From assembly GCF_001654495.1 (NCBI RefSeq), contig NZ_CP015849.1, forward strand, positions 7,295,001 to 7,359,000: DNA of 64,000 bases. The letters run 5' to 3'. The notes under the pieces are model-generated. The model made no database searches. It was not told where the DNA came from and saw only the letters and a program-made list of their open reading frames with translations. Shown here in pieces: positions 807 through 42,038 of this stretch. Origin of the DNA: Streptomyces sp. SAT1 (GTDB lineage: Bacteria > Actinomycetota > Actinomycetes > Streptomycetales > Streptomycetaceae). Within the stretch, counting starts at the first letter, position 1. Each line of letters begins with the position of its first letter. The translations under genes were made by a program, and so were the position numbers.

Positions 807-843
807 GCAGCCGGACATCGACCACAAGGGCAGGGAACACGTG

Positions 844-4879: not shown

Positions 4880-5458
4880 ATGAGTGAATTCGTCACCACT
4901 GTTGTCGGACCGGACGACTGGCCCGCCGTCAGCGAGTTCTTCGAACCGAAAGGACTCGTGGAGAACTGCTGGTGCACCTACTTCCGGATGACGTCGAAGG
5001 AACGCTCCGGCTGTGGCACCGCGGCACGCCGGGACCGGCTGCGCGACCTGGTCACGTCCGGCGAGCGGGTGGGCGTCCTCGGCTCGGTCGACGGCGTCCC
5101 GGCCGGCTGGCTCGGGGCCGGTCCCCGCTCGGCCTTCCCGCGGCTGCGCGGATCCCGGGCGGCGAAACCGATCGAGGGCGACGACCCCGAGCGCATCTGG
5201 TCCATCGTGTGCCTCTACCTGGCCCGTGAGCACCGCCACCGGGGACTGGTGAAGGTGCTCGTCGACCGGGCGGTCCAGTGGGCGCGGGAGGAGAAGGCGG
5301 AATTCATCGAGGCATTTCCCGAGGACGACCGCGATCCCGGGGCCGCATTCGACCGCCACAGTTTCCACGGCCGGGTGAGCACCTTCGAGTCCTGCGGATT
5401 CACCGTCGTCGAACCCCGCCTGCAGCGCAGAGCCTTGGTACGGAAGGATCTCCGTTGA
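4880..5458 (+). CDS. GNAT-family acetyltransferase
   Basis: A 192-residue protein with the GNAT layout: an N-terminal strand-helix region, a central sheet (WSIVCLYLAREHRHRGLVKVLVDRAVQWARE) carrying the acetyl-CoA pyrophosphate loop as REHRHRGL, and a C-terminal strand segment ending in ESCGF. The start is well supported by GGAAGG eight bases upstream of ATG 4880. The stop overlaps the TTG start of the next gene, so it is translationally coupled to the presumed aziridine-forming pair. Two roles fit: N-acetylation of a reactive amino group as a protecting step in the pathway, or self-protection. I cannot tell which from sequence. Cysteines near the N-terminus (NCWCTYF, then SGCG) are a visible oddity. 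Confidence 0.8.
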   Translation: MSEFVTTVVGPDDWPAVSEFFEPKGLVENCWCTYFRMTSKERSGCGTAARRDRLRDLVTSGERVGVLGSVDGVPAGWLGAGPRSAFPRLRGSRAAKPIEGDDPERIWSIVCLYLAREHRHRGLVKVLVDRAVQWAREEKAEFIEAFPEDDRDPGAAFDRHSFHGRVSTFESCGFTVVEPRLQRRALVRKDLR

Positions 5459-6039
5459 CAGTTCACAAGATGCTCGTGCTGGAGCCGTTCCTGAACAACC
5501 AGGCGGCGACCACACCCGACAATCTCGCCGACGGCCGGCTGAACATCTGGCGGAACTCGCTCCCGGCGCGGAGCGAGCCGCTGGAGGTCGTCGTGGACGG
5601 TGTGCCGCTGCGCAGCGCACCGCTCGACGGGCGGGGCCCGGACAACGTGCTCTGCTCGGGACAGCGGATAGCGGTACCCGAGCGGCGCTGGGACTGGCTC
5701 TATGTCATCGGCTGCGGCGAGCGGCGGGTCAGAGACGTCCTCACCTGGCACTTCTCCAACGGCTCGGTGGACCGCGACCACTTGGCGCTCTCCGACCTGT
5801 GGGAGGGCCGGTCCGGCTACGGCGAGGAACTCGCGCTGCGCACCGACGTCATCCACTACCCGTACCACGTGCAGGAACGCATAGGGATCACACTCTGGTG
5901 CCAACGTGTGCCGATCACCTCCCGGCAGCCGCTCGGCGCCATGTCACTGCCCAAGAACCCGGCCGTGCACCTCTTCGCCATGACGCTGGTCGGCCGGCGG
6001 GCGGACGGCCGGCCGGCGGACGAAGGGGACCAGTCGTGA
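5455..6039 (+). CDS. Candidate small subunit of aziridine-forming enzyme (Vzb10/11, AziU3/U2-like)
   Basis: A 194-residue protein in which I recognise no common enzyme motif. It appears beta-rich, with conserved-looking blocks such as NNQAATTPDNLADGRLNIWR and DWLYVIGCGERRV. Published work on vazabitide and azinomycin identifies a two-protein complex (Vzb10/11, AziU3/U2) with no similarity to known enzymes that makes the aziridine by sulfate elimination. This gene and the next have the position, pairing and pathway context expected for that complex, but the assignment is inference because no alignment was possible. The start is probably TTG 5455: GGAAGG lies seven bases upstream and TTGA overlaps the GNAT stop. 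ATG 5470 is the alternative. The stop overlaps the next gene's GTG start. Confidence 0.6.
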   Translation: MTVHKMLVLEPFLNNQAATTPDNLADGRLNIWRNSLPARSEPLEVVVDGVPLRSAPLDGRGPDNVLCSGQRIAVPERRWDWLYVIGCGERRVRDVLTWHFSNGSVDRDHLALSDLWEGRSGYGEELALRTDVIHYPYHVQERIGITLWCQRVPITSRQPLGAMSLPKNPAVHLFAMTLVGRRADGRPADEGDQS

Positions 6040-7112
6040 ACGCAGGCGGTACGACCGGGACGGCGCTGCGCACTCCGCGGTGGAACGGCACCACCGGCAC
6101 CTACCCCCAGTGGTACGAGGACCCGCTGAGCTGCCTGCAGACCACCCTCGGCAGCATCCTGCTGGAGCACGGTCTGCGGCCGGTCGAAGTGCTCGGCCAC
6201 GCCTGCGAGTTCGCGTTCGCGCCCGACGACGCCATGTGCGAGGAGTTCTACCGCCCCGCGCAGAGCAGCCGCGGTGTGGCGGCCGACCTGTGCCCCTACC
6301 ACGACGTGGAGTCGGCCTGGACGTCCGGGAAGGACGCCGACGACCTGATCGGCCTCATCGAGGAGCACGCCGCCGTCATCGTCGCGGTGGACAACTACCA
6401 TCTGCCCTTCCGGCCCGCCTACCACGACGTGCACGCGGCCCACCTGGTCGTGGTGCCCGCCTGGCGGCGCACCGGCGGCGGACAGGTGGAGTTCTACGTC
6501 TCCGACGCCCAACCGCCGGGATTCCAGGGGTGGCTGGCCGCCGAGCACCTGGTGGAGAGCTGGACGTCCGGCAACCCCACCGACACCCAGGACGTGTTCT
6601 TCTCCAGCCGGGAGATCGGCGGCCGGGTGCTGACCGTGAAGGTGCGGCCGGAACCAGGACCGCTCACCGACGACCAGGTCGTACGGGCGCTCAGGGGCAA
6701 CCTAGACAAGTGGGACACCGGCACGGCAGGCCCCGCCGACCGCGTCTGGACCGGCCGCAGCGGGCTGCGCCGGTTCGTCGAGCGGCTGGAGGAGCACAGT
6801 GCCGACCCGGCCCGGCTGCGGCCCGCGTACACCTTCGGCTGGGCGATGCAGGCGCAGGCGTACCTGCACGGGCGGTTCGCCCAGGGGTGCGCGCTCCGCA
6901 CGCGCCCCGGCCATCTGGCCGAGGTAGCGGCCTCGGCGGACCGCGTCGTCTCCGCCTGGTCGAACGTACGGCTGCTGAGCGCGCACGCGGCACACACCCC
7001 CGGGGCACCGGAACTGATCCGGCGGCGCGGCGAAGAGCTGACGCACGCCTACGAGCAACTGGCCGTCGACTGGCGGCTCGCCCTGTCGACGGAACGGACG
7101 GACGCCTCATGA
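6036..7112 (+). CDS. BtrH-N-like protein; candidate large subunit of aziridine-forming enzyme
   Basis: A 358-residue protein. Its N-terminal half resembles the butirosin BtrH N-terminal family: DPLSCLQTTLGSILLEHG with a cysteine, then VDNYHLPFRPAYHD followed by HAAHLVVVPAW, and a strand-rich VEFYVSDAQPPGFQG segment. The C-terminal half is helical with no motif I recognise. It is coupled to the upstream gene by a GTGA overlap and to the downstream aminotransferase by ATGA, so the pair is probably made in fixed ratio. By context it is the likely partner in a Vzb10/11- or AziU3/U2-type complex that displaces sulfate with the C6 amino group. The BtrH-like resemblance is from memory of motif order. 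A thiol-dependent acyltransferase role is the main alternative. Confidence 0.6.
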   Translation: MNAGGTTGTALRTPRWNGTTGTYPQWYEDPLSCLQTTLGSILLEHGLRPVEVLGHACEFAFAPDDAMCEEFYRPAQSSRGVAADLCPYHDVESAWTSGKDADDLIGLIEEHAAVIVAVDNYHLPFRPAYHDVHAAHLVVVPAWRRTGGGQVEFYVSDAQPPGFQGWLAAEHLVESWTSGNPTDTQDVFFSSREIGGRVLTVKVRPEPGPLTDDQVVRALRGNLDKWDTGTAGPADRVWTGRSGLRRFVERLEEHSADPARLRPAYTFGWAMQAQAYLHGRFAQGCALRTRPGHLAEVAASADRVVSAWSNVRLLSAHAAHTPGAPELIRRRGEELTHAYEQLAVDWRLALSTERTDAS

Positions 7113-8374
7113 ACGGCGCAGCCGCGGACACCCTGGCGCTCACCGGGGGCGAGCCCGTACTGGGCACGCTCGCGCCGGTGGACTGGCCGAAGACGACGGA
7201 CGCCGACCGCGCAGCGGTGCTCTCGGTGCTGGACTCGAACGTCTTCGTCTCCGACCGCACCGGCGGTCCGACCGCCGTCGAACGGCTGGAGAGAGCCTGG
7301 GCCGACTACTTAGGCGTACGGCGCTGCGTCGGCGTGAGCAACGGCACCACCGCGATCGAACTCGCCCTGCTGGCCCACGGGGTGGGCCCCGGCGACGAGG
7401 TCGTCGTCCCCGCGCTGACCTTCGTCGCCACGGCGATGGCCGTGGTGCATGTCGGGGCGACACCCCGCTACGCCGACGTCGACCCGGTCACCTTCACCAT
7501 GTCACCGCGGAGCCTGGCCGCGCAGATCACCGGGCGGACCAAGGCCGTCGTCCCGGTGCACCTGCACGGTCTGAGCGCCGACATGGAGGCGATCGGCGAC
7601 ATCGCGCGCCGCCACGGCTGCGTGGTGGTCGAGGACGCCGCGCAGGCCCAGGGCGCCCGCTACCGGGACACCCTGTGCGGCGCGTCCGGCAACACCGCCA
7701 CCTTCAGCCTCCAGATGACGAAGAACCTCCCCACCTGCGGAGAAGGCGGACTCGTCGTCACCGACGACGACGGCGTGGCCGACCGGATCGTCCAGTTGCG
7801 CCAGTTCGGCGAGACCATCCGCGCGGACCGCCCCCGGCGGTACGTGAGCCACCGGCTCGGCTTCAACGCCAAGCTGAGCAACGTCCAGGCGGCCTACACC
7901 GCCAGCCAGTTGGAGCGCTTCGAGGAGTACCACGCGGCCCGCAGGTCCAATGTCGCCGCCTTCCTGGCGCGGCTGGAGCACCTGGACGGCCTGCGGTGCC
8001 CGGCGGAGCCCGAAGGGTACGAGCACGCGTGGCACATCCTGCGGTTCGTCGTCGACCTCGGCCGGCTCCTGCCCGGCGCGGACACCGCGACGGCGCGGAA
8101 CCTGCTGATCCGGGCCCTGCGCGCCGAGGGCCTTCCGGCGACCAGGTACCAGATGATGCCGGTCCCCGAGCAGCCCGCGCTGCGGTCCATATGCCCCCAG
8201 GAGCCGGGCTCGTGGCCGGTCACCCAGGACGTCGTCGACCGCAGCTTCACCCTCCAGCAGCGCCATCTGCCGCCCGACGCCGGGCCGTTGCTCCAGGACT
8301 TCGCCGATGTCCTGGAGAAGGTCTGGTCGCATCTGAAGGTCCTGGCGGAACTCGCGGAAGGTGCGGACCGCTGA
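7109..8374 (+). CDS. DegT/DnrJ/EryC1-family PLP aminotransferase
   Basis: A 421-residue sugar-aminotransferase-type enzyme. Visible family signatures are VSNGTTAIELAL, DEVVVPALTFVATA, the PLP-contacting VVVEDAAQAQGA, and the Schiff-base lysine in QMTKNLPTCGEGG. In the DADH route an aminotransferase converts the ketone formed after two-carbon transfer into the C6 amine while the substrate is still on the carrier protein, and this gene stands directly before the transketolase genes. ATG 7109 overlaps the previous stop (ATGA). Codon 68 is a TTA leucine codon, very rare in Streptomyces genes. Confidence 0.92.
   Translation: MNGAAADTLALTGGEPVLGTLAPVDWPKTTDADRAAVLSVLDSNVFVSDRTGGPTAVERLERAWADYLGVRRCVGVSNGTTAIELALLAHGVGPGDEVVVPALTFVATAMAVVHVGATPRYADVDPVTFTMSPRSLAAQITGRTKAVVPVHLHGLSADMEAIGDIARRHGCVVVEDAAQAQGARYRDTLCGASGNTATFSLQMTKNLPTCGEGGLVVTDDDGVADRIVQLRQFGETIRADRPRRYVSHRLGFNAKLSNVQAAYTASQLERFEEYHAARRSNVAAFLARLEHLDGLRCPAEPEGYEHAWHILRFVVDLGRLLPGADTATARNLLIRALRAEGLPATRYQMMPVPEQPALRSICPQEPGSWPVTQDVVDRSFTLQQRHLPPDAGPLLQDFADVLEKVWSHLKVLAELAEGADR
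7310..7312 (+). promoter_or_regulatory. In-frame TTA codon (likely bldA-dependent translation point)
   Basis: Leu68 of the aminotransferase (context DYLGVRR) is encoded by TTA. In Streptomyces TTA is read only by the bldA tRNA and marks developmentally controlled genes. It is the only in-frame TTA I noticed in the window's genes. Because the flanking genes are start/stop coupled, failure here should also lower expression of the downstream transketolase and carrier-protein genes. Confidence 0.8.
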
Positions 8375-8382
8375 CCAGATCC

Positions 8383-9258
8383 GTGCACGAGCCGGCGGCA
8401 CGCGAACAGCTGGAACACCACGCCCACCGCGTGCGGGAGCACATCGTCGAGATGTGCTCCGGCCCCGAGGGCGGCCACCTGGGCGGATCGATGTCCTGCG
8501 TGGAGATCCTGGTGGCGCTGTTCTTCCACACGATGAACGTCGACCCCGCCGACCCCGGACGGCCCGAGCGGGACATGTTCGTCCTGAGCAAGGGCCACGC
8601 GGCGATGGCCCTCTACGCCGTACTCGCCGAGCGCGGCTTCATCGCGCCGGAGGAGATCGGCACCTTCTGCCGCCCCGGCGGCAGACTGGCCACCCACGGC
8701 AACGTCGCCGTCCCCGGCGTCGAGTTCGCCACCGGCTCCCTCGGCCACGGCCTCGCCCTCGCCAACGGCACCGCCTGGGCGCAGCGCCGGCACAGCGGGA
8801 CACCCGCGCGCACCTATGTGCTGCTCGGTGACGGCGAGTTGCAGGAAGGATCCGTATGGGAGGCGGCCCAGGTCAGCCGCGCCCTGAACGCCGGGAACCT
8901 CGTCGCGGTGATCGACGTCAACGGCTTCCAGCAGACCGGGGCCGTCGGCGAGGTGAGCCCCGGCGCGCCCGTGGCCGACCGGTGGAACGGCTTCGGCTGG
9001 CACACCGTCGAGGTGGACGGACACGACCCGGCGGCCCTCTGCGCGGCCTTCGAGGAGGCGGCGGAGACGGACGGGCCGACGGCGGTGGTCTGCCGCACGG
9101 TCAAGGCGCAGGGCACCGGTGTCCTCGCGGGCCGGGCCGTCTCCCACTTCGTCCGGCTCGACACCGCGAAACGCGCACGCGTCCTGGCCGGCCTGCGACG
9201 GACGGCCCCGCTCGGCGGCACGAACGGCGGCACGAAGGGAGCGCCCGGCCATGCCTGA
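8383..9258 (+). CDS. Transketolase, N-terminal (pyrophosphate-binding) subunit
   Basis: This is the thiamine-diphosphate pyrophosphate-domain half of a split transketolase (about 291 residues). Visible are GGHLGGSMSCVEIL, the LSKGHAAMALY segment, SLGHGLALANG, and the ThDP/Mg motif GDGELQEG followed by IDVNGFQQTG. In DADH biosynthesis a two-subunit transketolase adds a two-carbon hydroxyacyl unit to the carrier-bound glutamate semialdehyde. GTG 8383 is given as start. A CTG at 8371 is a serious alternative because GGAAGGTG lies seven bases upstream and CTGA would overlap the aminotransferase stop. The stop overlaps the start of the C-terminal subunit. Confidence 0.9.
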   Translation: MHEPAAREQLEHHAHRVREHIVEMCSGPEGGHLGGSMSCVEILVALFFHTMNVDPADPGRPERDMFVLSKGHAAMALYAVLAERGFIAPEEIGTFCRPGGRLATHGNVAVPGVEFATGSLGHGLALANGTAWAQRRHSGTPARTYVLLGDGELQEGSVWEAAQVSRALNAGNLVAVIDVNGFQQTGAVGEVSPGAPVADRWNGFGWHTVEVDGHDPAALCAAFEEAAETDGPTAVVCRTVKAQGTGVLAGRAVSHFVRLDTAKRARVLAGLRRTAPLGGTNGGTKGAPGHA

Positions 9259-10180
9259 GGTCACAGCGGAGCGGGCGAGCACCCGTGCCGCCTTCGCGGA
9301 CGCCCTGCCGGAACTCGTGGCACGGCACGGCGTACTCGTCGTCGACACCGACACCGGCAGCGTCAAACCGACAGCTGAGATGGATTACCTCAACGTCGGC
9401 ATAGCGGAGAACGCCGCCATCGGGCTCGCCGCCGGTGCCGAGCACTGCGGACGGCGCGCGCTGGTCTGCACATTCGGTGCCTTCGCCGTCAGCCGGGCGT
9501 TCGAGTTCATCAAGCTCGACATCGCCTATCCGCGGCGCCGGGTGTGCATCGTCGGCACCCACGGCGGCGCCAGCGGAGGCTGGCTGGGGCCGACCCACCA
9601 CGCCACCGAGGACCTGGCCCTGATGAGCGCGCTGCCCCACATGCGCGTCGTCGTCCCGGCCGACGCGCACCAGACGGCGCCGCTGCTGGAGCAGTGCCTG
9701 CGCCACGACGGCCCGACCTACCTGCGGCTCGGCCGCAAGGCGTCGCCGCTGTTCGCGGGCTTGCCCGTACCGGAACTGGGCGTGCCCCAGGTGGTCCGGA
9801 CCGGCCGCGACATCGCCCTGGTCGCGACGGGACCCGAGATGCTCTCCATCGCCCTGGACGTCGCCCGCGCCCTGGCCGACGAGGGACACAGCGCCCAGGT
9901 GGTCAACGTCCACACCGTCGACCAGGAGGCCGCCGCCGCGACCGGACGGGCCCTCGCCGGGGAGTGCCGTCTGCTGGTCACGCTGGAGGAGGCGTGGACC
10001 TCCGGCGGAATGGGCGCGCAGCTCGCCGCGGCGGTCGGAGCCCGCGGCATCCCGTGGCTCCCGATCGGCGTCACCGGCTTCCTCCCACCCGGCACCCACG
10101 CGTCCCTGCTGGAGGCCGGCGGGCTCACCGCCGACTCCGTGCTCCGCCAGGTGCTGAAGTTCGTCACCGACCCGCGATGA
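9251..10180 (+). CDS. Transketolase, C-terminal (pyrimidine-binding) subunit
   Basis: The second half of the split transketolase (309 residues), carrying the pyrimidine-binding and C-terminal domains. MDYLNVGIAENAAIGLAAG contains the conserved glutamate that activates thiamine, followed by the GTHGGASGG and GPTHHATEDLALM segments. The last third (DIALVATGPEM, LLVTLEEAWTSGGMGAQL) is the typical transketolase C-domain. It begins inside the last codons of the N-subunit gene, so the two subunits are coupled and expected to form a heteromeric enzyme. Split transketolases occur in several natural-product clusters; next to a LysW-like carrier the function is well constrained to C5 to C7 extension. 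Confidence 0.9.
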   Translation: MPEVTAERASTRAAFADALPELVARHGVLVVDTDTGSVKPTAEMDYLNVGIAENAAIGLAAGAEHCGRRALVCTFGAFAVSRAFEFIKLDIAYPRRRVCIVGTHGGASGGWLGPTHHATEDLALMSALPHMRVVVPADAHQTAPLLEQCLRHDGPTYLRLGRKASPLFAGLPVPELGVPQVVRTGRDIALVATGPEMLSIALDVARALADEGHSAQVVNVHTVDQEAAAATGRALAGECRLLVTLEEAWTSGGMGAQLAAAVGARGIPWLPIGVTGFLPPGTHASLLEAGGLTADSVLRQVLKFVTDPR

Positions 10181-10235
10181 CCGAGAACCGACCGAGAACC
10201 GACCGAGAACCGACCGAGAACCGACCGGGAACCGT
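10181..10235 (+). repeat. Five-unit 11-bp tandem repeat before the carrier-protein gene
   Basis: Four perfect copies of CCGAGAACCGA and one degenerate copy (CCGGGAACCGT) run head to tail between the transketolase stop and the carrier-protein ribosome-binding site. An ATG at 10177 overlaps the transketolase stop and reads through the array in frame into the carrier gene. Because the unit is 11 bp, gain or loss of one copy would break that frame. Confidence 0.9.
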
Positions 10236-10254
10236 TCGAGAAGGGACAGATGAG

Positions 10255-10422
10255 ATGGACACGCAGTGCGTCAGCTGCGCCGGCCCGTTGCAGATACCGG
10301 CGGACAGCTATCAGGGGGAGATCGTGAGCTGTCCGGGGTGCGCGGCGGAACTGGAGATCCAGTCGACGGCCCCGCTGGCCCTGGCGATCGCGCCCGAGCC
10401 CGAAGAGGACTGGGGTGAGTGA
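10255..10422 (+). CDS. LysW-like amino-group carrier protein (AmCP)
   Basis: A 55-residue acidic protein. It has two zinc-binding CxxC pairs (Cys5/Cys8 and Cys26/Cys29) and the diagnostic C-terminal EDWGE. In this family the gamma-carboxyl of the terminal glutamate is ligated to the alpha-amino group of the substrate, which is then processed while protein-bound. Five neighbouring genes (ligase, kinase, reductase, aminotransferase, deacylase) are the expected partners. ATG 10255 is favoured because AAGGGA lies eight bases upstream. ATG 10177 would give an 81-residue form with an N-terminal segment encoded by the 11-bp repeats. The stop overlaps the ligase GTG. Confidence in the family is high because of EDWGE. 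Confidence 0.95.
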   Translation: MDTQCVSCAGPLQIPADSYQGEIVSCPGCAAELEIQSTAPLALAIAPEPEEDWGE

Positions 10423-11302
10423 CCGCCCGGGAAGACGACAGCGGCCGCTCGGGATCCTCCTGTCCACCGTCCGCCACGAGGAGCGCCGCCTTCTGGACGA
10501 ACTGGAACGCCGCGACATCCCCGCGGTCCGGCTCGACCCCCGCACCCTGTCCTTCGCACCACGGGACGCCGAGCGGCTGCGGGGCATGCGGGTCCTGAAC
10601 CGGGAGATCTCCAGCCAACGGGCCGCGCTCACGGCGGAGTCGCTGGAAGCGTTCGGCGCGCACCCGGTGAACGGCGCGACCGCGAGCCGGGTGTGCGGCA
10701 ACAAGTGGTCCACCTATGTGCGGCTGAGGCAGCTCGGCATCCCCACCCCGACGACGCTGCTGGCGCCGTCCCCGGAAGCCGGGAGGAAGGCGATCGAGGC
10801 GGTCGGCTACCCGGCCGTGGTCAAGCCCCTCAGCTCGTCGTGGGGCAACCGGGTCAGCCTGATCACCGACCGGTACGCGGCCGACGCCGTGCTCGAACAC
10901 TGCGCCGCGCTGCCCTCGGCGGTCACACGGACGGTGATCGTGCAGGAAGCGGTGAGACCCGGCGCGCCGGACATTCGGGGCATCGTGGTCGACGGTGTCT
11001 GCCTGGGCGTCATCGTCCGGGCGGGCGGCGACTGGCGCAACAACGTGGCCCGGGGAGCGACGGTGGAGCAGCACCCGCCGGACGAGGAGATCCAGCGGCT
11101 GTGCGTCCGGGCGGCGGCCGCCGTGGACGCCCGGATCGCCGGGGTGGACCTGGTCGAGGGCGCGGACGGGCGCCACCTGGTGCTGGAGGTGAACTCCCGC
11201 GTGGAGTTCCAGGGGTTCGAACGGGCGACGGGTGTCGATGTCGCCGCGCGGATCGTGGAGGCATGTGTGTCCGAGCCGACCGATGTGAAGGTGCCCGTAT
11301 GA
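10415..11302 (+). CDS. LysX-like ATP-grasp ligase (AmCP-glutamate ligase)
   Basis: A 295-residue ATP-grasp enzyme expected to attach the amino group of glutamate to the C-terminal glutamate of the adjacent carrier protein. ATP-grasp features are visible: a central NKWSTYVRLRQLGIPTP, GYPAVVKPLSSSWG with the nucleotide-binding lysine, and EVNSRVEFQGFERATGVDV near the C-terminus. The last block corresponds to the LysX/ArgX metal-binding region (usually VEFKN). In this pathway class the substrate is glutamate rather than aminoadipate; the VEFQGFE variation may reflect substrate choice, but that is speculative. GTG 10415 overlaps the carrier stop; ATGA couples it to the reductase. Confidence 0.92.
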   Translation: MSDRPGRRQRPLGILLSTVRHEERRLLDELERRDIPAVRLDPRTLSFAPRDAERLRGMRVLNREISSQRAALTAESLEAFGAHPVNGATASRVCGNKWSTYVRLRQLGIPTPTTLLAPSPEAGRKAIEAVGYPAVVKPLSSSWGNRVSLITDRYAADAVLEHCAALPSAVTRTVIVQEAVRPGAPDIRGIVVDGVCLGVIVRAGGDWRNNVARGATVEQHPPDEEIQRLCVRAAAAVDARIAGVDLVEGADGRHLVLEVNSRVEFQGFERATGVDVAARIVEACVSEPTDVKVPV

Positions 11303-14967: not shown

Positions 14968-15092
14968 AAAACAAGCGAGTTCGACCGGCGCAACCACCGT
15001 CCTCGGCAGGGCTCGGGACACTAGATTGACGCTGCCGCACGGCGCGTGAGACACGAGCAACAGGTACCGGCAAGGACGACAGAGGAGCGGAC

Positions 15093-16343
15093 ATGACATT
15101 GGGCCGTAGCTTCACCAAGCTGTGGTGGTCGCAGGGCCTATCGAACCTCAGCGACGGGCTGGTGCTGGCCGCCGTACCCCTCCTCGCCGTGACGATGACC
15201 CGCGACCCCCTGCTCATCTCCGGCATGACGGTGGCCCAGTTCCTGCCGTGGCTGCTGTTCACGCTGCCGTCCGGAGCACTCGCCGACCGCATCGACCGAC
15301 GCCTCATCATGGTGTGGGGCAACGTGATCCGCGCCGTCGGATTCGGCCTGCTGGTCCTGACCCTCGTGGCCGACCTGCGCCACATCACCATCCTCTACCT
15401 CGCCGTGTTCCTCGCCGGCACGGCCGAGACACTCGTGGACAACGCGGCCCTGACCGTCCCGCCGCGCCTGGTCAAACGGAGCGACCTCGAACGGGCCAAC
15501 GGCCGCCTGTTCGCCACCCAGTCGGCCATCAACAACTTCGTCGGACCCACCGCGGGCGCCGCCCTGTTCGCGATGTCGGCGATCGTCGTGTTCACCTCCA
15601 GCGCGGGCCTCTTCGCCCTCGCCGCGCTGGCCGCGTTCACCCTGCCGCGGATGCTGCCGACCGCGAGCGACACCAGCGGCGCCAAGCACACCCAGGGCGA
15701 GGTCGTGCGCAGCATCAAGGAGGGCTGGTCCTACTTCTGGAACCACCGGCTGCTGCGCCGCGTGGCGTTCATCTCCGGCTCGATCAACCTGTTCTCGTCC
15801 GCCACCGGTGGCCTGCTCGTCCTCCTGGCCACCGGCCCCCTGGGCGTCTCCGAGTCCTGGTACGGCATCTTCATCGCCGTACCGGCGGTCGGAGCCGTCA
15901 TCGGTTCGCTGATCGCCGCGCGCGTGGTCCCGGCCATCGGCGGGGGACCGGTCACCTGGCTCGCCGCGCTCGTGCCCGCAGCCAGCTATGTGGTGCTCGG
16001 CCTCAGCGGGAACGTCTTCCTCGTCGAGGTCTTCATGTTCTTCGCCGCGATCGCCACGGCCCTCAACCAGATCGTGGTCAGCACGCTCCGCCAGGCAGCC
16101 GTGCCCGACGAACTCCTCGGCCGCGCCACGGCCGGATACCGCCTGATCGTGCTCGGCGCGGTGCCCGTCGGGGCGTTCCTCGGCGGCGGACTGGGACGCT
16201 GGCTGGGACCCGAGAGCACCTTCGTGGTGTGCGGCACAGGACTGGCGCTCGCCGCGCTCGTCTTCGCCTCACGTGTCACGACCCGGGCGCTGCGCGAAGC
16301 CGAGCAGACCGTCCACCCCACCGCCGCCGAACCCATCGCCTGA
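15093..16343 (+). CDS. MFS transporter, probable product exporter
   Basis: A 416-residue major-facilitator protein with about 12 hydrophobic segments. It has the loop 2-3 motif GALADRIDRRLIM and a charged central loop around SDTSGAKHTQGEVVRSIKEG. The sequence resembles the enterobactin-exporter-like MFS group common in actinomycete clusters. It begins after a 125-bp gap, so it may have its own promoter, and is followed by the VOC and carrier-protein genes. By context it probably exports the cluster product and contributes to self-resistance. Substrate is unknown. Confidence 0.88.
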   Translation: MTLGRSFTKLWWSQGLSNLSDGLVLAAVPLLAVTMTRDPLLISGMTVAQFLPWLLFTLPSGALADRIDRRLIMVWGNVIRAVGFGLLVLTLVADLRHITILYLAVFLAGTAETLVDNAALTVPPRLVKRSDLERANGRLFATQSAINNFVGPTAGAALFAMSAIVVFTSSAGLFALAALAAFTLPRMLPTASDTSGAKHTQGEVVRSIKEGWSYFWNHRLLRRVAFISGSINLFSSATGGLLVLLATGPLGVSESWYGIFIAVPAVGAVIGSLIAARVVPAIGGGPVTWLAALVPAASYVVLGLSGNVFLVEVFMFFAAIATALNQIVVSTLRQAAVPDELLGRATAGYRLIVLGAVPVGAFLGGGLGRWLGPESTFVVCGTGLALAALVFASRVTTRALREAEQTVHPTAAEPIA

Positions 16344-16380
16344 CCACGACACCGCACCGGATCCGGAAAGAGCGCACCAG

Positions 16381-16764
16381 ATGAGCCTGACCCTGTCCCA
16401 CACCACGATCGACGCCCGCGACCCCTACGCGCAGGCCCGGTGGTGGTGCGAAATGGCCGAGTTCTCCCCGCAGGAGGGAGTGCGGCCGGGCTCGGACGAG
16501 TGCTACGTGATCACCGAGCACGGCTACACGGTGCTCTTCATCCTCGTGCCCGACGCGAAGACGGTGAAGAACCGCGTGCACTTCTGCATGCGCCCCAAGG
16601 ACCGCTCGCAGGACGAGGAGGTGGCACGCGCCCTCCGACTGGGAGCGAGCGTGGTCACCGACTTCAGGGAGAGCGGCGGCTGGGTGGTCATGGCCGACCC
16701 GGAGGGCAACGAGTTCTGCATCCTGACCGCTTCGCGGCACACCGACGCACCTGCGGAATCGTGA
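16381..16764 (+). CDS. VOC (glyoxalase/bleomycin-resistance) superfamily protein
   Basis: A 127-residue protein with the paired beta-alpha-beta-beta-beta arrangement of the VOC fold. The N-terminal SHTTIDARDPYAQARWWCEMAEF and C-terminal GWVVMADPEGNEFCILT segments are typical. VOC proteins in antibiotic clusters often bind the drug and sequester it; the mitomycin-binding protein Mrd is one for an aziridine compound. Placed right after the exporter in a presumed aziridine cluster, a binding-protein resistance role is a reasonable inference, though a metal-dependent enzyme cannot be excluded. Start ATG 16381 follows GGAAAGAG. Confidence 0.85.
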   Translation: MSLTLSHTTIDARDPYAQARWWCEMAEFSPQEGVRPGSDECYVITEHGYTVLFILVPDAKTVKNRVHFCMRPKDRSQDEEVARALRLGASVVTDFRESGGWVVMADPEGNEFCILTASRHTDAPAES

Positions 16765-16796
16765 GCCGAGCCGACCAGACGAGAACAGGAGATCCC

Positions 16797-17072
16797 GTGA
16801 CCGAGAACCGCGACGTCGTGTGCAAGGTCGAGTACGAGCCACCCGCGGACGAACTGGAGGAGGTGCTCGCCGCCGTCATCGCGGAGGTGCTGGACGTCGA
16901 CCAGGTCGGCCGGCGCGACAGCTTCTACGACCTCGGCGGCGCGTCGCTGTCGGCCATCCGGATCTGCGCCCGCATCGAACGCCGCCTCGGCATCCGCGTC
17001 GACCCCGCATGGCTGCTCGAACACGACGAACTGGCCGACTTCGCCGAGCAGATCAGGCTCGGTGCCGCGTGA
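16797..17072 (+). CDS. Discrete peptidyl carrier protein
   Basis: A 91-residue single-domain carrier protein with the phosphopantetheine attachment motif FYDLGGASLSAIRI (serine of GGAS). AGGAG lies just upstream of GTG 16797. The stop overlaps the start of a free-standing adenylation protein, so the two are probably made together and form an A/PCP loading pair. A discrete C protein follows. Such split modules often activate one amino acid for a coupling or tailoring step. Confidence 0.93.
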   Translation: MTENRDVVCKVEYEPPADELEEVLAAVIAEVLDVDQVGRRDSFYDLGGASLSAIRICARIERRLGIRVDPAWLLEHDELADFAEQIRLGAA

Positions 17073-18595
17073 GCGAGCCGACGAACACGCCGCCGCTGCG
17101 CAGTGTGCACGCCGCGGTCATGGAGCACGCCGCCACGGCACCCCGCGACCTCGCCCTGGTGCACGGCGGCGAACGCATCGACTACCGGACCCTCACCGAC
17201 GCGGCGGCGGCACTGGCCGGGCAGCTCACCGCATGGGGCGTACGGCCCGGCGACATCGTCCCGCTGCTGGTACCGCGCGGCGCCCAACTGGTCGCCCTCC
17301 AGCTCGGCGTGCTGATGAGCGGCGCCGCCTACGCCACCCTCGACCCGCGCTGGCCCGCCCCCCGCGTCGAGTCGATCCTCCGCCAGCTCGACCGCCCGGT
17401 CGTCGTCGGCCGTCCCGGCGGCGAACCCCTCGGCGTCACCCGGGCCCTCGACCCGGTCCCCCTGGCCGCGATCGCCGGGGCCGCGCGGGCGGACCGGCCC
17501 GAGCCGGCGCATGTCGCCCTGGACGATGTGGCCATGGTGTTCTTCACCTCGGGCAGCACAGGTATCCCCAAGGGTGTGCTCATACCCCACCGGGCGGTCA
17601 CCCGGATGTTCGGACCGGGCGGCCTGGACGGTTTCGGACCCGGACACATCACCCCACAGGTCGCGCCCGCCGCCTGGGACATGTACGCCTTCGAGCTGTG
17701 GGGCCAGCTCACCACCGGCGGCGCCGTGGTCGTCGTCGACGAGAACCACCTCATGCCCAGCCGGCTGCGCTCCCTCGTCGCCGACGAGCAGATCGACACG
17801 GTCTGGCTCACGACCTCGCTGTTCAACCTGGTCGTCGACGAGGACCTGGACGCCTTCGAGGGGCTGAAGACGCTCTACGTCGGCGGCGAGAAGCAGTCCC
17901 CCCGCCATGTCGAGATGTTCCTGCGGCGCTTCCCCTGCCTGCCCCTGTGGAACGGCTTCGGCCCGGCCGAGAACTGCATGCTCACCACGGTCCACCGGAT
18001 GGGACCGGGCGACAGGAACGCCCCCGCGGGCATCCCGGCGGGTGTGCCGGTGCCCGGCACCACGGTGATCCTGCTGCGCGAGGACGGCTCACCGGCACCG
18101 CGCGGCGAACGCGGTGAGATCGTCGCACTCGGCCCCGGAGTGGCCCTGGGCTACCTCAACGACGATCTCCTCACCCGCGAGAGGTTCCCGGAACTGCGCG
18201 TGGCGGGCGAGAAGCGCCGCGCCTACCGCACCGGCGACATGGGAGTGTTCGACGACGACGGCGTCCTGCACTTCCACGGCCGCCGGGACCGGCAGGTCAA
18301 ACTGAGCGGCAACCGGATCGAACTCGGCGACATCGAGGCCGCCGCGTCCACCGTCCCGCAGATCCGCACCTGCGCCGCCGTGGCGCGCACGGACGAGGGC
18401 GGCACCGTCGCACACATCGCGCTGGTCTACACCCTCGCCGAGGGCGGCGAGCTGACCCCGCGGGAGCTACGCGCGGCACTCGGCGCACTGCTTCCCGCCT
18501 ACGCCGTCCCCGGCAGGTTCGAGCAACTGGACGACCTGCCCCGCAGGGAGAACGGCAAGGTCGACCTGCCCGCTCTGGAGAGGCGCCGGGTGTGA
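17069..18595 (+). CDS. Discrete NRPS adenylation protein
   Basis: A 508-residue stand-alone adenylation domain with all core motifs: FFTSGSTGIPKG (A3), a GFGPAEN variant of A5, YRTGDMG (A7), GRRDRQVKLSGNRIELGDIE (A8) and RRENGKVD with the A10 lysine. Specificity positions read by hand against PheA give approximately D-M-F-W-Y-G-G-M-L-K. The D-x-F-W-x-G-G frame recalls valine-type pockets, but three positions are unusual, so the substrate is uncertain. It likely charges the preceding discrete carrier protein, whose stop it overlaps; its own stop overlaps the C-protein start. Confidence 0.92.
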   Translation: MSEPTNTPPLRSVHAAVMEHAATAPRDLALVHGGERIDYRTLTDAAAALAGQLTAWGVRPGDIVPLLVPRGAQLVALQLGVLMSGAAYATLDPRWPAPRVESILRQLDRPVVVGRPGGEPLGVTRALDPVPLAAIAGAARADRPEPAHVALDDVAMVFFTSGSTGIPKGVLIPHRAVTRMFGPGGLDGFGPGHITPQVAPAAWDMYAFELWGQLTTGGAVVVVDENHLMPSRLRSLVADEQIDTVWLTTSLFNLVVDEDLDAFEGLKTLYVGGEKQSPRHVEMFLRRFPCLPLWNGFGPAENCMLTTVHRMGPGDRNAPAGIPAGVPVPGTTVILLREDGSPAPRGERGEIVALGPGVALGYLNDDLLTRERFPELRVAGEKRRAYRTGDMGVFDDDGVLHFHGRRDRQVKLSGNRIELGDIEAAASTVPQIRTCAAVARTDEGGTVAHIALVYTLAEGGELTPRELRAALGALLPAYAVPGRFEQLDDLPRRENGKVDLPALERRRV

Positions 18596-19896
18596 TGCGC
18601 GCATTCCCGCAGACCTTCGAGCAAGAGGCGCTCTGGATCGCCGAACAGTTCATGCCGGACCCCTCGCCGTTCCTGGAGACATGGGCGCAGTACATCGCCG
18701 GACCGCTCGACGTACCGGCCCTGGAACGCGCCCTGGCCGCGCTGGTGGGACGGCACGCCGCGTTGCGCACCCGGTTCGAGCTGGACGACACCGGCGCGGT
18801 ACAGCGCATCGACCCGGTCGGCACCGTCCCCCTGGAACGGCTCCCGTGGCCCGGCGGAGACCTGCACGACACCCTGCGCCGGGCCGGCCGGCGCCCCCTC
18901 GACCTGACCGTGTCACCGGCCAGGCTGACGCTGTACGACTACGCGCCCGACGAACACGTGCTGCTGCTCCAGATCCACCACATCGCCGTCGACGACGCCT
19001 CCCTGGCACTGCTCGACCACGAGCTGTCCGCCCTGTACACCGAGGAGACCGGCGGCGAACCGGCGAAGCTCACCCCGCCGGCCCTGACACTCGGCGAGCA
19101 CGCCGTCCGGGCGCGGGCGGCCGGGATCGCGCCGCGGGACCTCGCCTTCTGGGCCGACTACCTGGACGGGGCACCGCCGCTCACCCACCTGCCGCCCCGG
19201 ATCCGCCCGGCGGCCGCCCGGCGCGGCCCCGACTGCGACTGCGTGCGCGCCACCGTCCCCGCCGAGCTGGGCAGGGCCGTCCGCACCGCGGCCCGTACGC
19301 TGCGCACCACGCCCCATGTGCTGATGAGCGCCTGCACGGCCGTCACCGCGGCGGCGGTGAACGGCGAGGACATCGTCATCGGCATCCCGGTGTCCCGGCG
19401 CGGCGAACCGGACCTCGACGACGTCTTCGGCTGTCTGACCGACCTGCTGCCGGTACGGTTCCAGGTCCCCGAGCGGGCCACGTTCGCCGAGGTGTGCGCC
19501 GCCGCGAAACGCAGCTCGCTGGACGTGCTGCGGCACCGCCAGGTGCCCTACGCCATGCTCGGCGGCGGTGTCACCCGGACCCGGGGAGTGCTGTCCGGCG
19601 AGCACCTGGGCCGAATCTGCCTCGTCCTCGACGAGATCCCGAGCAGGCTGACGCTGCCGGGACTGCGCTGCGAACGGGTGCACGTGGCGGGCGCCTCGGC
19701 GAAGTTCGACTGGCTCCAGTACGTCGTCGCCGACGGCGAGGGCTGGAACGTGCGGGCCGACTACGCCACGGATTACTTCACCGCCGACGAGGCGGTGGAC
19801 ATGCTCCAGCAGTGGCTGACCGTCCTGACGACGGCCGCCGACGACCCCCACGTACCGGTGCGGACCCTGTTCGACAGGCTGGCCGAGATCGGATGA
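18592..19896 (+). CDS. Discrete NRPS condensation protein
   Basis: A 434-residue free-standing condensation domain. The active-site motif reads HHIAVDDASL, that is HHxxxD with Asp in place of the usual Gly, so the catalytic second histidine is present. An early FEQEALWIAEQF resembles the C1 region, and FGCLTDLLPVRF resembles a later C-domain core. It probably joins the amino acid on the discrete PCP to an acceptor, such as the azabicyclic amino acid on the first A-PCP protein. GTG 18592 (eight bases after GGAGAGG, GTGA overlap) is chosen; ATG 18595 is an equal alternative. Confidence 0.9.
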   Translation: MMRAFPQTFEQEALWIAEQFMPDPSPFLETWAQYIAGPLDVPALERALAALVGRHAALRTRFELDDTGAVQRIDPVGTVPLERLPWPGGDLHDTLRRAGRRPLDLTVSPARLTLYDYAPDEHVLLLQIHHIAVDDASLALLDHELSALYTEETGGEPAKLTPPALTLGEHAVRARAAGIAPRDLAFWADYLDGAPPLTHLPPRIRPAAARRGPDCDCVRATVPAELGRAVRTAARTLRTTPHVLMSACTAVTAAAVNGEDIVIGIPVSRRGEPDLDDVFGCLTDLLPVRFQVPERATFAEVCAAAKRSSLDVLRHRQVPYAMLGGGVTRTRGVLSGEHLGRICLVLDEIPSRLTLPGLRCERVHVAGASAKFDWLQYVVADGEGWNVRADYATDYFTADEAVDMLQQWLTVLTTAADDPHVPVRTLFDRLAEIG

Positions 19897-19915
19897 CGTC
19901 CAGAAGGAGAGCGAC

Positions 19916-20497
19916 ATGCCGGTGAGAACTGAGCCGCGATCCGGTCCGGAGCGGCGCGCCTGCGACTGCGGTGCGACGGTGTGGCTGACGGGCCTGCCCA
20001 GCTCGGGCAAGACGACGATCGCCCGCGCCGTGGCCGGACACCTCCGCGGCGCAGGACGCAGGGTGGAGGTGCTCGACGGTGACGAACTGCGCGAGACCCT
20101 CTCCTCGGGTCTGGGATTCACCCGCGCGGACCGGCACACCAACGTGCAGCGCATCGGCCTGGTCGCCGAAGTGCTCGCCCGCAACGGCGTCCTGGTGCTG
20201 GTGCCGGCCATCGCGCCCTACGCCGACAGCCGGCAGGCGGTGCGGCGACGACACCAGGCGTCCCACACCCCCTACCTGGAAGTACATGTCGCCACACCTT
20301 CGAGCACCTGCTCCCGGCGCGACGTGAAGGGCCTGTACGCCAGACAGGCGGCGGGCGAGCTGTCCGGACTCACCGGTGTCGACGACCCGTACGAGGTCCC
20401 GGAAGCCCCTGATCTGCGCATACCCGCACATGTGCAGTCCGTCGCCGAATCGGCGTCGGCTCTGCTGAGCCTGCTGGGGGAAAGGCGGCTGACATGA
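19916..20497 (+). CDS. cysC: Adenylylsulfate (APS) kinase
   Basis: A 193-residue APS kinase that phosphorylates adenylylsulfate to PAPS. It shows the P-loop TGLPSSGKTTIA, the substrate segment LDGDELRETLSSGLGFTRADR, and the NVQRIG block of the family. AGAAGGAGA precedes the ATG. With CysD and CysN it gives a complete sulfate-to-PAPS route inside the cluster. No PAPS reductase or sulfite reductase is next to it, so the purpose is sulfonation rather than sulfur assimilation. Confidence 0.93.
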   Translation: MPVRTEPRSGPERRACDCGATVWLTGLPSSGKTTIARAVAGHLRGAGRRVEVLDGDELRETLSSGLGFTRADRHTNVQRIGLVAEVLARNGVLVLVPAIAPYADSRQAVRRRHQASHTPYLEVHVATPSSTCSRRDVKGLYARQAAGELSGLTGVDDPYEVPEAPDLRIPAHVQSVAESASALLSLLGERRLT

Positions 20498-21426
20498 GTT
20501 CCCGTCACACCGGCCTGGACATGGGCCATCTCTACGCCCTCTCGCATCTGGACGCGTTGGAGTCGGAGGCGGTGCACATCTTCCGTGAGGTGGCGGGGGA
20601 GTTCGAGAATCCGGTGATCCTGTTCTCCGGGGGCAAGGACTCGATCCTGATGCTGCGTCTGGCGTTGAAGGCGTTCGCGCCTGCGCCGGTGCCGTTCGCG
20701 CTGCTGCATGTGGACACCGGTCACAACTTCCCCGAGGTGCTGGCCTACCGGGACCGCACGGTGGAGCGGTACGGGCTGCGGCTGCACGTGGCGTCGGTGC
20801 AGGACTACATCGACCGGGGTGTGCTCCGCGAACGCGCGGACGGGACGCGCAATCCGCTGCAGACGCTGCCGCTGACGGAGAGGATCCGCACCGAGCGGTT
20901 CGACGCGGTGTTCGGCGGGGGGCGCCGCGACGAGGAGAAGGCACGGGCCAAGGAGCGGGTGTTCTCGCTGCGCGACGAGTTCTCCCAGTGGGACCCGCGC
21001 CGCCAGCGCCCCGAGCTGTGGAACCTCTACAACGGGCGCCACGCACCGGGCGAGCACGTACGCGTGTTCCCGCTGTCGAACTGGACCGAGCTGGACGTGT
21101 GGCAGTACATCGCCCGCGAGGGCATCGACCTGCCCGCCATCTACTACGCGCACGAACGCGAGGTGTTCGAGCGGGGCGGCATGTGGCTGACCGCCGGACA
21201 GTGGGGCGGCCCCCGCGAGGGCGAGAGGGTGGAGAAGCGGCAGGTCCGCTACCGCACGGTCGGCGACATGTCCTGCACCGGCGCCGTCGACTCCGACGCC
21301 ACCACCATCGAGAAGGTCATCACCGAGATCGCCGCCTCCCGCCTGACCGAACGCGGCGCCACCCGCGCCGACGACAAGCTCTCCGAAGCCGCGATGGAAG
21401 ACCGCAAACGCGAGGGGTACTTCTAG
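20494..21426 (+). CDS. cysD: Sulfate adenylyltransferase subunit 2
   Basis: A 310-residue ATP-sulfurylase small subunit. Visible are ILFSGGKDSILMLRLALKAF (PP-loop), LLHVDTGHNFPEVL, GGGRRDEEKARAKERVFSLR and a LSNWTELDVWQYI segment, all characteristic of CysD. It overlaps cysC by ATGA. The first part of the gene has more G-ending and fewer C-ending codons than its neighbours (for example around 20520-20700), which may point to a different origin from the surrounding cluster genes. Confidence 0.95.
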   Translation: MSSRHTGLDMGHLYALSHLDALESEAVHIFREVAGEFENPVILFSGGKDSILMLRLALKAFAPAPVPFALLHVDTGHNFPEVLAYRDRTVERYGLRLHVASVQDYIDRGVLRERADGTRNPLQTLPLTERIRTERFDAVFGGGRRDEEKARAKERVFSLRDEFSQWDPRRQRPELWNLYNGRHAPGEHVRVFPLSNWTELDVWQYIAREGIDLPAIYYAHEREVFERGGMWLTAGQWGGPREGERVEKRQVRYRTVGDMSCTGAVDSDATTIEKVITEIAASRLTERGATRADDKLSEAAMEDRKREGYF

Positions 21427-21428
21427 AG

Positions 21429-22745
21429 ATGACCACCGTGACACCCGAACACCTCGCGGCCACCACCCTGCTGCGCTTCGCCACCGCCGGATCCGTCGAC
21501 GACGGCAAGTCCACCCTCGTCGGCCGCCTCCTGCACGACTCCAAGTCCGTCCTCACCGACCAGCTCGAAGCCGTCGAACGCGCCTCCGCCGGCCGCGGCC
21601 AGGACGGACCCGACCTGGCCCTGCTCACCGACGGCCTGCGCGCCGAGCGCGAGCAGGGCATCACCATCGACGTCGCCTACCGCTACTTCGCCACCCCCCG
21701 ACGCCGCTTCATCCTGGCCGACACCCCCGGACATGTGCAGTACACCCGGAACATGGTCACCGGCGCCTCCACCGCCGAACTCACCGTGATCCTCGTCGAC
21801 GCCCGCAACGGCGTCGTCGAGCAGACCCGCCGCCACGCCGCCATCGCCGCGCTGCTCCGCGTCCCGCACGTGGTGCTGGCGGTGAACAAGATGGACCTGG
21901 TGGGCTACCGGGAGCCGGTGTTCGCGGCCATCGCGAAGGAGTTCACGGCGTACGCGACGGAGCTGGGCGTCCCCGAGGTCACGGCCGTCCCGATCTCCGC
22001 GCTGGCCGGGGACAACGTGGTGGAGCCCTCCGCGGTCATGGACTGGTACGGCGGACCCACCGTCCTCGAACACCTGGAGACCGTCCGGCTGGGCGACACC
22101 TCGGCGAGCGGGCCTTCCCGCTTTCCCGTGCAGACGGTCATCCGGCACGGCGGGGAACGCCACTACGCCGGGCAGCTGCTCAGCGGCCGGCTCCGGGTCG
22201 GAGACACCGTGACGGTGCAGCCCTCCGGCCGCGTCACCACCATCACCTCGCTCGACGTCCTCGGACAGCCGGCGGACGCCGTGTGCGCGGGCCGGTCCCT
22301 CAGTGTGCGGCTCGCGGACGAACTCGACGTCGGGCGCGGCGACATGCTCACCGCCGGACCGCGGCCGCCCCGGATCGCCAAGGAGACCGGGGCCACCGTC
22401 TGCCATGTCGCGGACACCCCGCTGACCGTCGGCCACCGGGTGCTCCTCAAGCACACCACACGCACCGTGAAGGCGATCGTCACGGAGATCCCCTCGCGGC
22501 TCACCCTCGACGACCTCTCCCAGCATCCCGAACCTGGGCAGCTCGTCGCCAACGACATCGGCCGGGTGCGGGTCCGCACCGCCGAACCGCTCGTCCTCGA
22601 CTCCTACGCCGACTCGCGGCGCACCGGCTCGTTCCTGCTGATCGACCCCGCCGACGGCACCACGCTCGCGGCCTGCATGGTGGGCGACGCGTTCGCGACC
22701 CGGGCCGCGGGACCGGCCGCCGACGGCGACGGGTGGGACTTCTAG
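21429..22745 (+). CDS. cysN: Sulfate adenylyltransferase subunit 1 (GTPase)
   Basis: A 438-residue GTPase subunit of ATP sulfurylase. Motifs are GSVDDGKSTLVGRLL (G1), DTPGHVQYTRNMVTGAS (G3), NKMD (G4), and an EF-Tu-like beta-barrel C-terminus ending near DSYADSRRTGSFLLID, characteristic of CysN. There is no C-terminal APS-kinase fusion, consistent with the separate cysC. It starts two bases after the cysD stop. It is the last gene I would assign with confidence to the azabicycle cluster. Confidence 0.95.
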   Translation: MTTVTPEHLAATTLLRFATAGSVDDGKSTLVGRLLHDSKSVLTDQLEAVERASAGRGQDGPDLALLTDGLRAEREQGITIDVAYRYFATPRRRFILADTPGHVQYTRNMVTGASTAELTVILVDARNGVVEQTRRHAAIAALLRVPHVVLAVNKMDLVGYREPVFAAIAKEFTAYATELGVPEVTAVPISALAGDNVVEPSAVMDWYGGPTVLEHLETVRLGDTSASGPSRFPVQTVIRHGGERHYAGQLLSGRLRVGDTVTVQPSGRVTTITSLDVLGQPADAVCAGRSLSVRLADELDVGRGDMLTAGPRPPRIAKETGATVCHVADTPLTVGHRVLLKHTTRTVKAIVTEIPSRLTLDDLSQHPEPGQLVANDIGRVRVRTAEPLVLDSYADSRRTGSFLLIDPADGTTLAACMVGDAFATRAAGPAADGDGWDF

Positions 22746-38188: not shown

Positions 38189-38196
38189 GTGATAGA

Positions 38197-38215
38197 AAGT
38201 TAGGCAAGCCTAAAC
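38197..38215. promoter_or_regulatory. Iron box before cchE
   Basis: AAGTTAGGCAAGCCTAAAC, with an imperfect palindromic core TTAGGCAAGCCTAA, lies 15 bp upstream of the cchE start and just after the cchD stop. It suggests an internal iron-repressed promoter. The match is weaker on the left arm than in the other boxes. Confidence 0.75.
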
Positions 38216-38229
38216 TCAAGGGGGAGGCC

Positions 38230-39111: not shown

Positions 39112-39179
39112 CTCATCGCGGGTAAGGTGTGCCTGCCCGCACGGGCCGCAGCGGACTGCACGAAAGCAAGGGATCCCGG

Positions 39180-42028: not shown

Positions 42029-42038
42029 GCGCCGAAAG

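Follow-up and report, generated by a model that had tools for sequence, protein, structure and literature searches.

What does Streptomyces sp. SAT1 make with a run of genes that brings together a carrier protein for amino groups, nonribosomal peptide synthetase (NRPS) parts and sulfate-activation enzymes? We analyzed a 64,000-base window of DNA, bases 7295001-7359000 of the single-contig 7.47-Mb genome, calling genes from open reading frames (ORFs) and codon-position composition, Pfam and NCBIfam (positions below are those of the window, and all cluster features lie on its forward strand). We found 23 co-directional genes to form one set, which, judged on homology, very probably makes a peptide with a 1-azabicyclo[3.1.0]hexane (aziridine-fused pyrrolidine) amino acid by the route proposed below. 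An aminoacyl-azabicyclo[3.1.0]hexane peptide is the most likely product because the cluster encodes homologues of AziU2/AziU3, a fused oxidase of the Fic32-33 type and an adenylation (A) domain with the code DVFDFGGVT. Aziridine natural products are few, and they alkylate DNA (ficellomycin and azinomycin type). The genes run in the order NRPS1, a fusion of a thioesterase with two acyl-CoA-dehydrogenase-like halves (TE-ACAD1-ACAD2), cytochrome P450, GNAT, AziU2, AziU3, DegT, transketolase N, transketolase C, LysW, LysX, LysY, LysZ, LysK, sulfotransferase, a major facilitator superfamily (MFS) protein, a vicinal oxygen chelate (VOC) protein, a peptidyl carrier protein (PCP), a stand-alone A domain, a stand-alone condensation (C) domain, CysC, CysD and CysN. 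A first-pass annotation had drawn a smaller cluster, at 4880-22745; its right end stood, but NRPS1, the TE-ACAD-ACAD fusion (841-3495) and the P450 (3562-4830) also belong to the set.

The carrier is a LysW-type amino-group carrier protein (AmCP) of 55 amino acids at 10255-10422, which matches PF21344 (E 2.2e-13; 49-50 bits versus a cut-off of 27) and is the sole LysW match in the SAT1 genome. The EDWGE end that had been noticed at first pass is there, as EEDWGE, and it is kept in the window and in all seven extended relatives that retain lysW. As LysW exceeds its cut-off by this much and the gene order recurs in seven other genomes, the gene set is not a chance assembly. In the same operon, Pfam places homologues of LysX (ATP-grasp ligase, 10415-11302; RimK and LysX_preATP_grasp), LysY (semialdehyde dehydrogenase, 11299-12309), LysZ (amino acid kinase, 12315-13136) and LysK (M20 hydrolase, 13133-14221). 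The genes expected for a pathway through diamino-dihydroxyheptanoic acid (DADH) to an aziridine are likewise present, by homology: a split transketolase (N-terminal subunit at 8371-9258, C-terminal subunit at 9251-10180, both by Pfam), a DegT/DnrJ aminotransferase (7109-8374; Pfam, E 7e-92), a sulfotransferase that would use 3'-phosphoadenosine 5'-phosphosulfate (PAPS), and an AziU2/AziU3-type pair. The LysX/Y/Z/K, transketolase, aminotransferase, sulfotransferase and cysC-cysD-cysN genes thus all lie, in one direction, where the first-pass annotation had put them, and its proposal of DADH followed by aziridine formation through sulfate displacement is supported by this gene set.

That proposal becomes firmer through two genes that had been left unnamed, at 5458-7112, which encode homologues of the two partner subunits of the aziridine synthase: AziU2 at 5458-6039 (PDB 7wuw_A/7wux/8gs1, E 2e-36, and alignment) and AziU3 at 6036-7112 (PDB 7wuw_C, E 1.1e-49; Pfam BtrH_N; tree). 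A figure legend describes 7WUX, a structure of the AziU2/AziU3 pair, as containing O7-sulfo-DADH (PMC11168924). To place the pair among relatives, we used a scan of a collection of 84,980 species, which may leave out records of SAT1 itself or of genomes very close to it; it returned 102 relatives of the cluster sulfotransferase, the best 80 of which were analyzed as loci. Both AziU2 and AziU3 homologues occur in 53 of these 80 loci, while in another 14 no gene of the AmCP route, for transketolase or for AziU proteins is in view, and these 14 may represent other sulfotransferases. In a midpoint-rooted AziU3 tree of 55 rows (53 loci, the window and the PDB segment, with rows below 70% query cover or with a stop dropped), a branch with 100/100 support splits off the window clade (8 rows), and another with the same support splits off the azinomycin clade (5 rows). 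Azinomycin-type AziU2/AziU3 proteins (79-97% identity) were seen in four loci (L120, L110, L124 and L145), hosted by Streptomyces NRRL S-340, S. flavidovirens, Microtetraspora glauca and S. violens.

The left end of the cluster links it to a second characterized enzyme. The protein at 841-3495 joins a TE domain (Pfam; motif GWSFGG) to two halves that match different chains of one PDB entry, 8hk0, titled as the Fic32-33 complex from S. ficellus NRRL 8067: ACAD1 matches chain A (E 5.9e-64; 42% identity, with other loci reaching up to 88%) and ACAD2 matches chain C (E 1.3e-12). The dehydrogenase fusion, which the first-pass annotation had counted, with the NRPS parts, as a combination it did not recognize from the known clusters, is therefore recognizable as a fused counterpart of Fic32-33 with a TE domain added, such that the heteromeric oxidase is found here as a single chain. 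Pfam detects one acyl-CoA-dehydrogenase middle domain in the fusion, in the ACAD1 half, and residues 279-638 of the fusion model superpose on 8hk0_A with Z 40.3 and 2.7 Å over 355 residues. The ACAD1 motifs LAIERTG and SAGTSE also occur in 8hk0_A; LAIERTG, whose Glu may be an isovaleryl-type catalytic base, is found in the window, its seven relatives and one further locus (L074, from Micromonospora wenchangensis), and SAGTSE in all of these except Amycolatopsis circi and L074. In the ficellomycin-like locus L079, the order is C-A-PCP-TE, ACAD1, ACAD2 in three genes, while the window has C-A-PCP followed by TE-ACAD1-ACAD2, which indicates, by domain order, that gene borders have shifted between the two arrangements. 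Among the 16 loci with both ACAD halves located in view, TE-ACAD1-ACAD2 is one ORF in L074 only. A separate alignment, A3, holds 38 rows of chosen TE, ACAD1 and ACAD2 pieces. ACAD1-ACAD2 as one ORF without TE was seen in L091 and L100 (Micromonospora halophytica and Herbidospora mongoliensis). In one chain, the fused TE-oxidase corresponds to a complex that otherwise comes from two genes.

Upstream of the fusion lies NRPS1, a C-A-PCP protein (C motif HHIIFDG, PCP motif LGGTS) whose 3' end occupies 3-806 and whose gene starts across the window edge, at L003:17186. The first-pass annotation had listed an A-PCP at the left and a PCP, an A and a C domain at the right, and had asked for an extension to the left; all these parts stood, but the extension added a C domain to the left NRPS, on the far side of the edge. 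Its A-domain code, DVFDFGGVT (positions set by eye on the GrsA scheme), is identical in the seven extended relatives and in M. wenchangensis. Of the 80 loci, 27 show ACAD1 together with an A domain, and all of these have a code of this type. Another 27 show an A domain without ACAD1, and the code type occurs in 6 of them; this second group contains the eight close relatives, whose NRPS1 falls beyond the 20-kb view. Counted by domain, the code type is present in 36 of 87 A domains, and five loci show ACAD1 but no A domain. The pattern DV[FG]D[FW]G[GA]V[TA] was drawn up after seeing the codes, and the 27 of 27 is accordingly descriptive, but the code gives genome mining a simple candidate marker of NRPS modules that load an azabicycle. 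The right-hand parts comprise a stand-alone PCP (16794-17072), A domain (17069-18595) and C domain (18592-19896; motif HHIAVD), all found with Pfam. The stand-alone A code, DMFWYGGML, is identical in the window and the eight close relatives, and its W and GG resemble those of valine codes.

Sulfation would be served by the enzyme at 14218-14967, which matches Sulfotransfer_5 (PF19798) at 24.4 bits versus a cut-off of 23.2 and carries the motif PRSRST. No PDB sequence relative was found by phmmer at E 0.1; the model (predicted local distance difference test 89) has the olefin synthase sulfotransferase 4gox as its best fold match (Z 14.6, 3.9 Å over 217 residues), which suggests that the protein has the PAPS sulfotransferase fold. 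The alignment used for folding held 30 of the 80 loci and left out L070 (in-frame stop), L068, L072, L073, L083, L119 and L144; the sulfotransferase alignments were made without L042, L047, L044, L054, L055 and L049 (in-frame stop). A search of the SAT1 genome with PF00685 found no sulfotransferase, because that of the cluster belongs to PF19798. PAPS supply is encoded at the right end by CysC, the adenosine 5'-phosphosulfate kinase (19916-20497; TIGR00455 above cut-off, and Pfam), and by the small and large subunits of sulfate adenylyltransferase, CysD (20494-21426; TIGR02039 above cut-off) and CysN (21423-22745; TIGR02034 above cut-off), the last of which ends the conserved block. The first-pass annotation had singled out these genes as the cluster's own sulfate-activation set; they are present but not distinctive, as 27 of 80 loci have at least two of CysC/D/N inside their 20-kb view, 20 of them among the 72 outside the close relatives. 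Some of those counted may be housekeeping genes. Embedded cys genes are a recurrent feature, not one unique to the window cluster.

The cys genes also carry a trace of exchange within the genome. A second SAT1 cysD lies at 5.93 Mb (L168), with a protein 99% identical to the cluster CysD, and the set around it is, by its gene content, an assimilatory operon, since it includes a sulfite/nitrite-reductase-like gene, cysH, cysC and cysN. In a DNA alignment, a 1.55-kb tract at 20533-22086 is 98.6% identical between cluster and L168 (21 mismatches), versus 60-89% in flanking 100-base windows on both sides; where the same stretch aligned with the cluster copies of the relatives, it shows 78-87% identity. 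These identities indicate that the cluster cysDN and the assimilatory cysDN underwent recent gene conversion, and that specialized and primary sulfate activation exchange sequence inside one genome.

From the homology, domain content, motif conservation and synteny that we observed, we infer the following reactions, their order and the product. LysX would couple the amino group of glutamate to the Glu at the C terminus of LysW, LysZ and LysY would convert the side-chain carboxylate to the semialdehyde, the two-subunit transketolase would add two carbons, and the DegT enzyme would aminate C6 to give AmCP-bound DADH. CysD/CysN and CysC would make PAPS, with which the sulfotransferase would sulfate O7, either before or after LysK releases DADH from the carrier. 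The AziU2/AziU3 homologues would then let the C6 amine displace the sulfate and close the aziridine, and the NRPS1 A domain (DVFDFGGVT) would load the resulting amino acid onto its PCP. On this carrier, the fused ACAD1-ACAD2 oxidase would complete the bicycle, following the title of the ficellomycin oxidase paper, which, judged by titles, presumably reports the 8HK0 structure. The stand-alone A domain and PCP (DMFWYGGML, possibly for a branched aliphatic amino acid) would supply the partner, the C domains would join the two, and the fused TE would release the product, to be decorated by the P450 and GNAT and exported by the MFS protein.

A number of observations weigh against this reading. Three of the cluster's proteins fall short of specific NCBIfam models: LysW scores 60 bits against NF041070 (cut-off 75), LysX 217 bits against TIGR02144 (276) and LysK 317 bits against NF003367, the [LysW]-lysine hydrolase (363). 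As LysX and LysK are both under equivalog cut-offs, they are best regarded as homologues of the AmCP enzymes, with equivalence unproven. The fusion model is good for ACAD1 only and of low confidence in the ACAD2 half, so that the pairing of the two in one chain as in Fic32-33 is putative. For DMFWYGGML we know of no characterized match. The cluster has two C domains where a simple dipeptide would need one, which makes the product length uncertain. Most directly, the identity of the window pair to azinomycin AziU2/AziU3 is just 37-40% (AziU3 40%), and the window clade sits on a long stem (1.26) in the AziU3 tree, where several other branches are long as well. The AziU3 block DN-x-H-LPFRPA-x-H-DVHAAH contains two His that are both kept in the window, but they are Tyr and Gln in three close relatives (NRRL S-646, S. 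roseicoloratus and D2-8; L070, L072 and L073) and Tyr and Arg in L074. Given this low identity, the long stem and the replaced His, a shifted substrate or reaction of the clade is possible. The cluster might then build DADH-type blocks into a product without an aziridine, such as an amino acid that has been ring-opened or rearranged, made by a deep AziU clade that has changed its reaction. We consider this quite unlikely, as most of the AziU3 block and the AziU2 block HYP.HVQ are common to the window and the azinomycin pair, and the cluster retains both its Fic32-33-like oxidase and its A domain with the code DVFDFGGVT.

The azabicyclohexane peptide is further favored by how the cluster has been maintained across genomes. 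Sulfotransferase identity is 72-83% in eight loci (L066-L073) and then drops to 44% and below. In seven of these eight close relatives, spread over four genera, the window order recurs from NRPS1 to the stand-alone C domain: Streptomyces NRRL S-646, D2-8, NRRL F-6131, S. roseicoloratus, Streptacidiphilus anmyonensis, Kitasatospora purpeofusca and Amycolatopsis circi. The C domain is followed by CysC in six relatives and then by CysD-CysN in five, the S. anmyonensis contig stopping after CysC; A. circi (L071/L163) has the order CysD-CysN-CysC at just 45-63% identity, which suggests that its sulfate-activation set was acquired separately. The VOC gene gave no tblastn match in four of the eight close relatives (F-6131, K. 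purpeofusca, A. circi and AC1-42W). Within the genus, LysW occurs in 59 of 392 genomes (55 above the family cut-off, which were those covered by one of the genus searches), and at E 1e-10, 42 of the 392 have the window-type sulfotransferase, the best other one being 43% identical.

Could the cluster instead be cryptic or decaying, and make no product? The eighth close relative, Streptomyces AC1-42W (L066/L165), keeps LysX to CysN only in the stretch read, where LysW, the aziridine synthase and the left half are missing, and its genome has no fusion gene at E 1e-100. The fusion was found in eight of nine genomes searched (the seven relatives and M. wenchangensis), with an internal TGA in the S. 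anmyonensis match, a further point against a functional pathway. In addition, we met no named product or description of the window cluster in the literature searched, which is weak evidence, as JACS and most subscription papers lay outside the search. Set against this, all 23 cluster frames are open in SAT1, the fusion lacks internal stops in the other seven genomes, and the LysW C terminus is kept in each of the seven relatives, across four genera, as are the motifs of the TE, PCP and C domains, the P450 and the sulfotransferase. Decay is therefore very unlikely, and by these comparisons the cluster is a real, orphan one and represents a distinct lineage, of which eight close relatives are seen in four genera.

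One relative shows how its parts may be exchanged. L074 resembles the window in NRPS1, TE-ACAD-ACAD, P450 and GNAT (67-74% identity, fusion included), but its AmCP and aziridine genes are only 40-55% identical, and its AziU3 places among the ficellomycin-like loci of the tree. On these identities, L074 reads as a natural recombinant of a window-type NRPS/oxidase half and a ficellomycin-like AmCP half, and this mosaic fits two interchangeable halves that meet at the aziridine amino acid. S. roseicoloratus has two different aziridine-type clusters (L073 and L086) in one genome.

The likely borders of the cluster are NRPS1, which starts 2-3 kb beyond the left window edge, and CysN, which ends at 22745. 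This is because the sampled ORFs to the left of NRPS1 lack NRPS, PKS (polyketide synthase) or AmCP domains and because the AAA_33 protein to the right of CysN found no match in any of 80 related loci. The left sample comprised nine further ORFs of stretch L003, five of which have Pfam domains, with a beta-propeller amidohydrolase closest to NRPS1 (ORFs of stretch L002 were listed without Pfam). Inside these borders, Pfam further identified a GNAT acetyltransferase for tailoring or self-protection (4880-5458), the MFS exporter (15093-16343), a VOC/glyoxalase_6 protein (16381-16764) and the cytochrome P450 (3562-4830), a probable tailoring hydroxylase with the heme motif FGVGVHRCIG. The P450 has GANPT, as do the seven extended relatives and L074, at the usual place of the I-helix acid-alcohol motif, and it possibly activates oxygen in an unusual manner. 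PADLOC gave no result for the three proteins tried. Elsewhere in the window, at 36887-54689, a separate NRPS of 3638 amino acids with three A and four C domains stands beside two ATP-binding cassette transporters, a periplasmic binding protein and FecCD, and looks like a siderophore cluster.

How does the cluster compare with known systems? Ficellomycin from Streptomyces ficellus is among the closest: a review passage links both sulfotransfer, by which its aziridine forms, and an oxidase-heterotetramer reference to it (PMC11880133), and its ACAD-like heteromeric oxidase is Fic32-33 (8HK0). The suggestion that the cluster is simply that of ficellomycin, or that ficellomycin is its product, would account for the AmCP route, the AziU-type synthase, the sulfotransferase, the Fic32-33-like oxidase and the lack of a PKS that the two share. 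Compared through Fic32-33 and related loci, the two differ. In the group of loci L077-L112, with oxidases 75-88% identical to Fic32-33, C-A-PCP-TE adjoins ACAD1 and ACAD2 (detail from L079), whereas the window has TE, ACAD1 and ACAD2 in one protein at 42% oxidase identity. The window cluster also has a P450, a GNAT, a stand-alone PCP, A and C domain and an MFS exporter, and among the 80 loci, only close relatives have a P450, a GNAT, a stand-alone A or C domain or an MFS protein at least 60% identical to those of the window (for P450 and GNAT, L074 does as well). Ficellomycin carries a guanidine, for whose installation an amidinotransferase is expected. In a search limited to amidinotransferase routes, the sole PF02274 (arginine deiminase/amidinotransferase) match in the genome lay at 5.81 Mb, 1.49 Mb from the cluster. 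We rejected the window as a ficellomycin producer on this distance and the oxidase identity, and regard the suggestion as extremely improbable.

Azinomycin-type clusters differ in other respects. Locus L120 shares AziU2/AziU3, sulfotransferase, LysX, an ACAD pair and P450 with the window, but it also encodes a type I PKS and an AlkZ-like glycosylase, and the window cluster is not that of azinomycin because it has neither. By Pfam, none of the 23 cluster genes contains a PKS domain. The first-pass annotation was thus correct that no PKS is in view, but this is a weak argument for novelty, as the missing PKS is not odd when the nearest characterized oxidase is that of ficellomycin and, in L079, none of the 8 genes run through Pfam encodes a PKS. 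An AlkZ self-resistance inside the cluster was rejected, as AlkZ-like matches in the genome lie only at 2.80 and 6.03 Mb, with one below cut-off at 1.14 Mb. Judged on gene content and oxidase identity, the cluster is hence neither that of ficellomycin nor that of azinomycin. Near-identity to a characterized azabicycle cluster, which the first-pass annotation had named as the finding that would undo its case for a new product, was not seen as far as comparison was possible (37-40% to AziU2/AziU3, 42% to Fic32-33 chain A), and a new final product is plausible. The vazabitide A (vzb) pathway, compared by its description, shares the AmCP-mediated DADH route (PMC9570651). We consider it about evenly poised whether the cluster represents a third azabicyclo[3.1.0]hexane lineage, in which TE and both oxidase chains form one polypeptide that acts on an NRPS module, the A code of this module, DV[FG]D[FW]G[GA]V[TA], predicts the aziridine amino acid as a signature dedicated to it, and the product is a new, non-guanidinylated aziridine peptide tailored by P450 and GNAT. 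Overall, this is a compact, syntenic, cross-genus family whose parts map onto solved steps of azinomycin and ficellomycin biosynthesis, which makes both prediction and isolation of the product directly testable.

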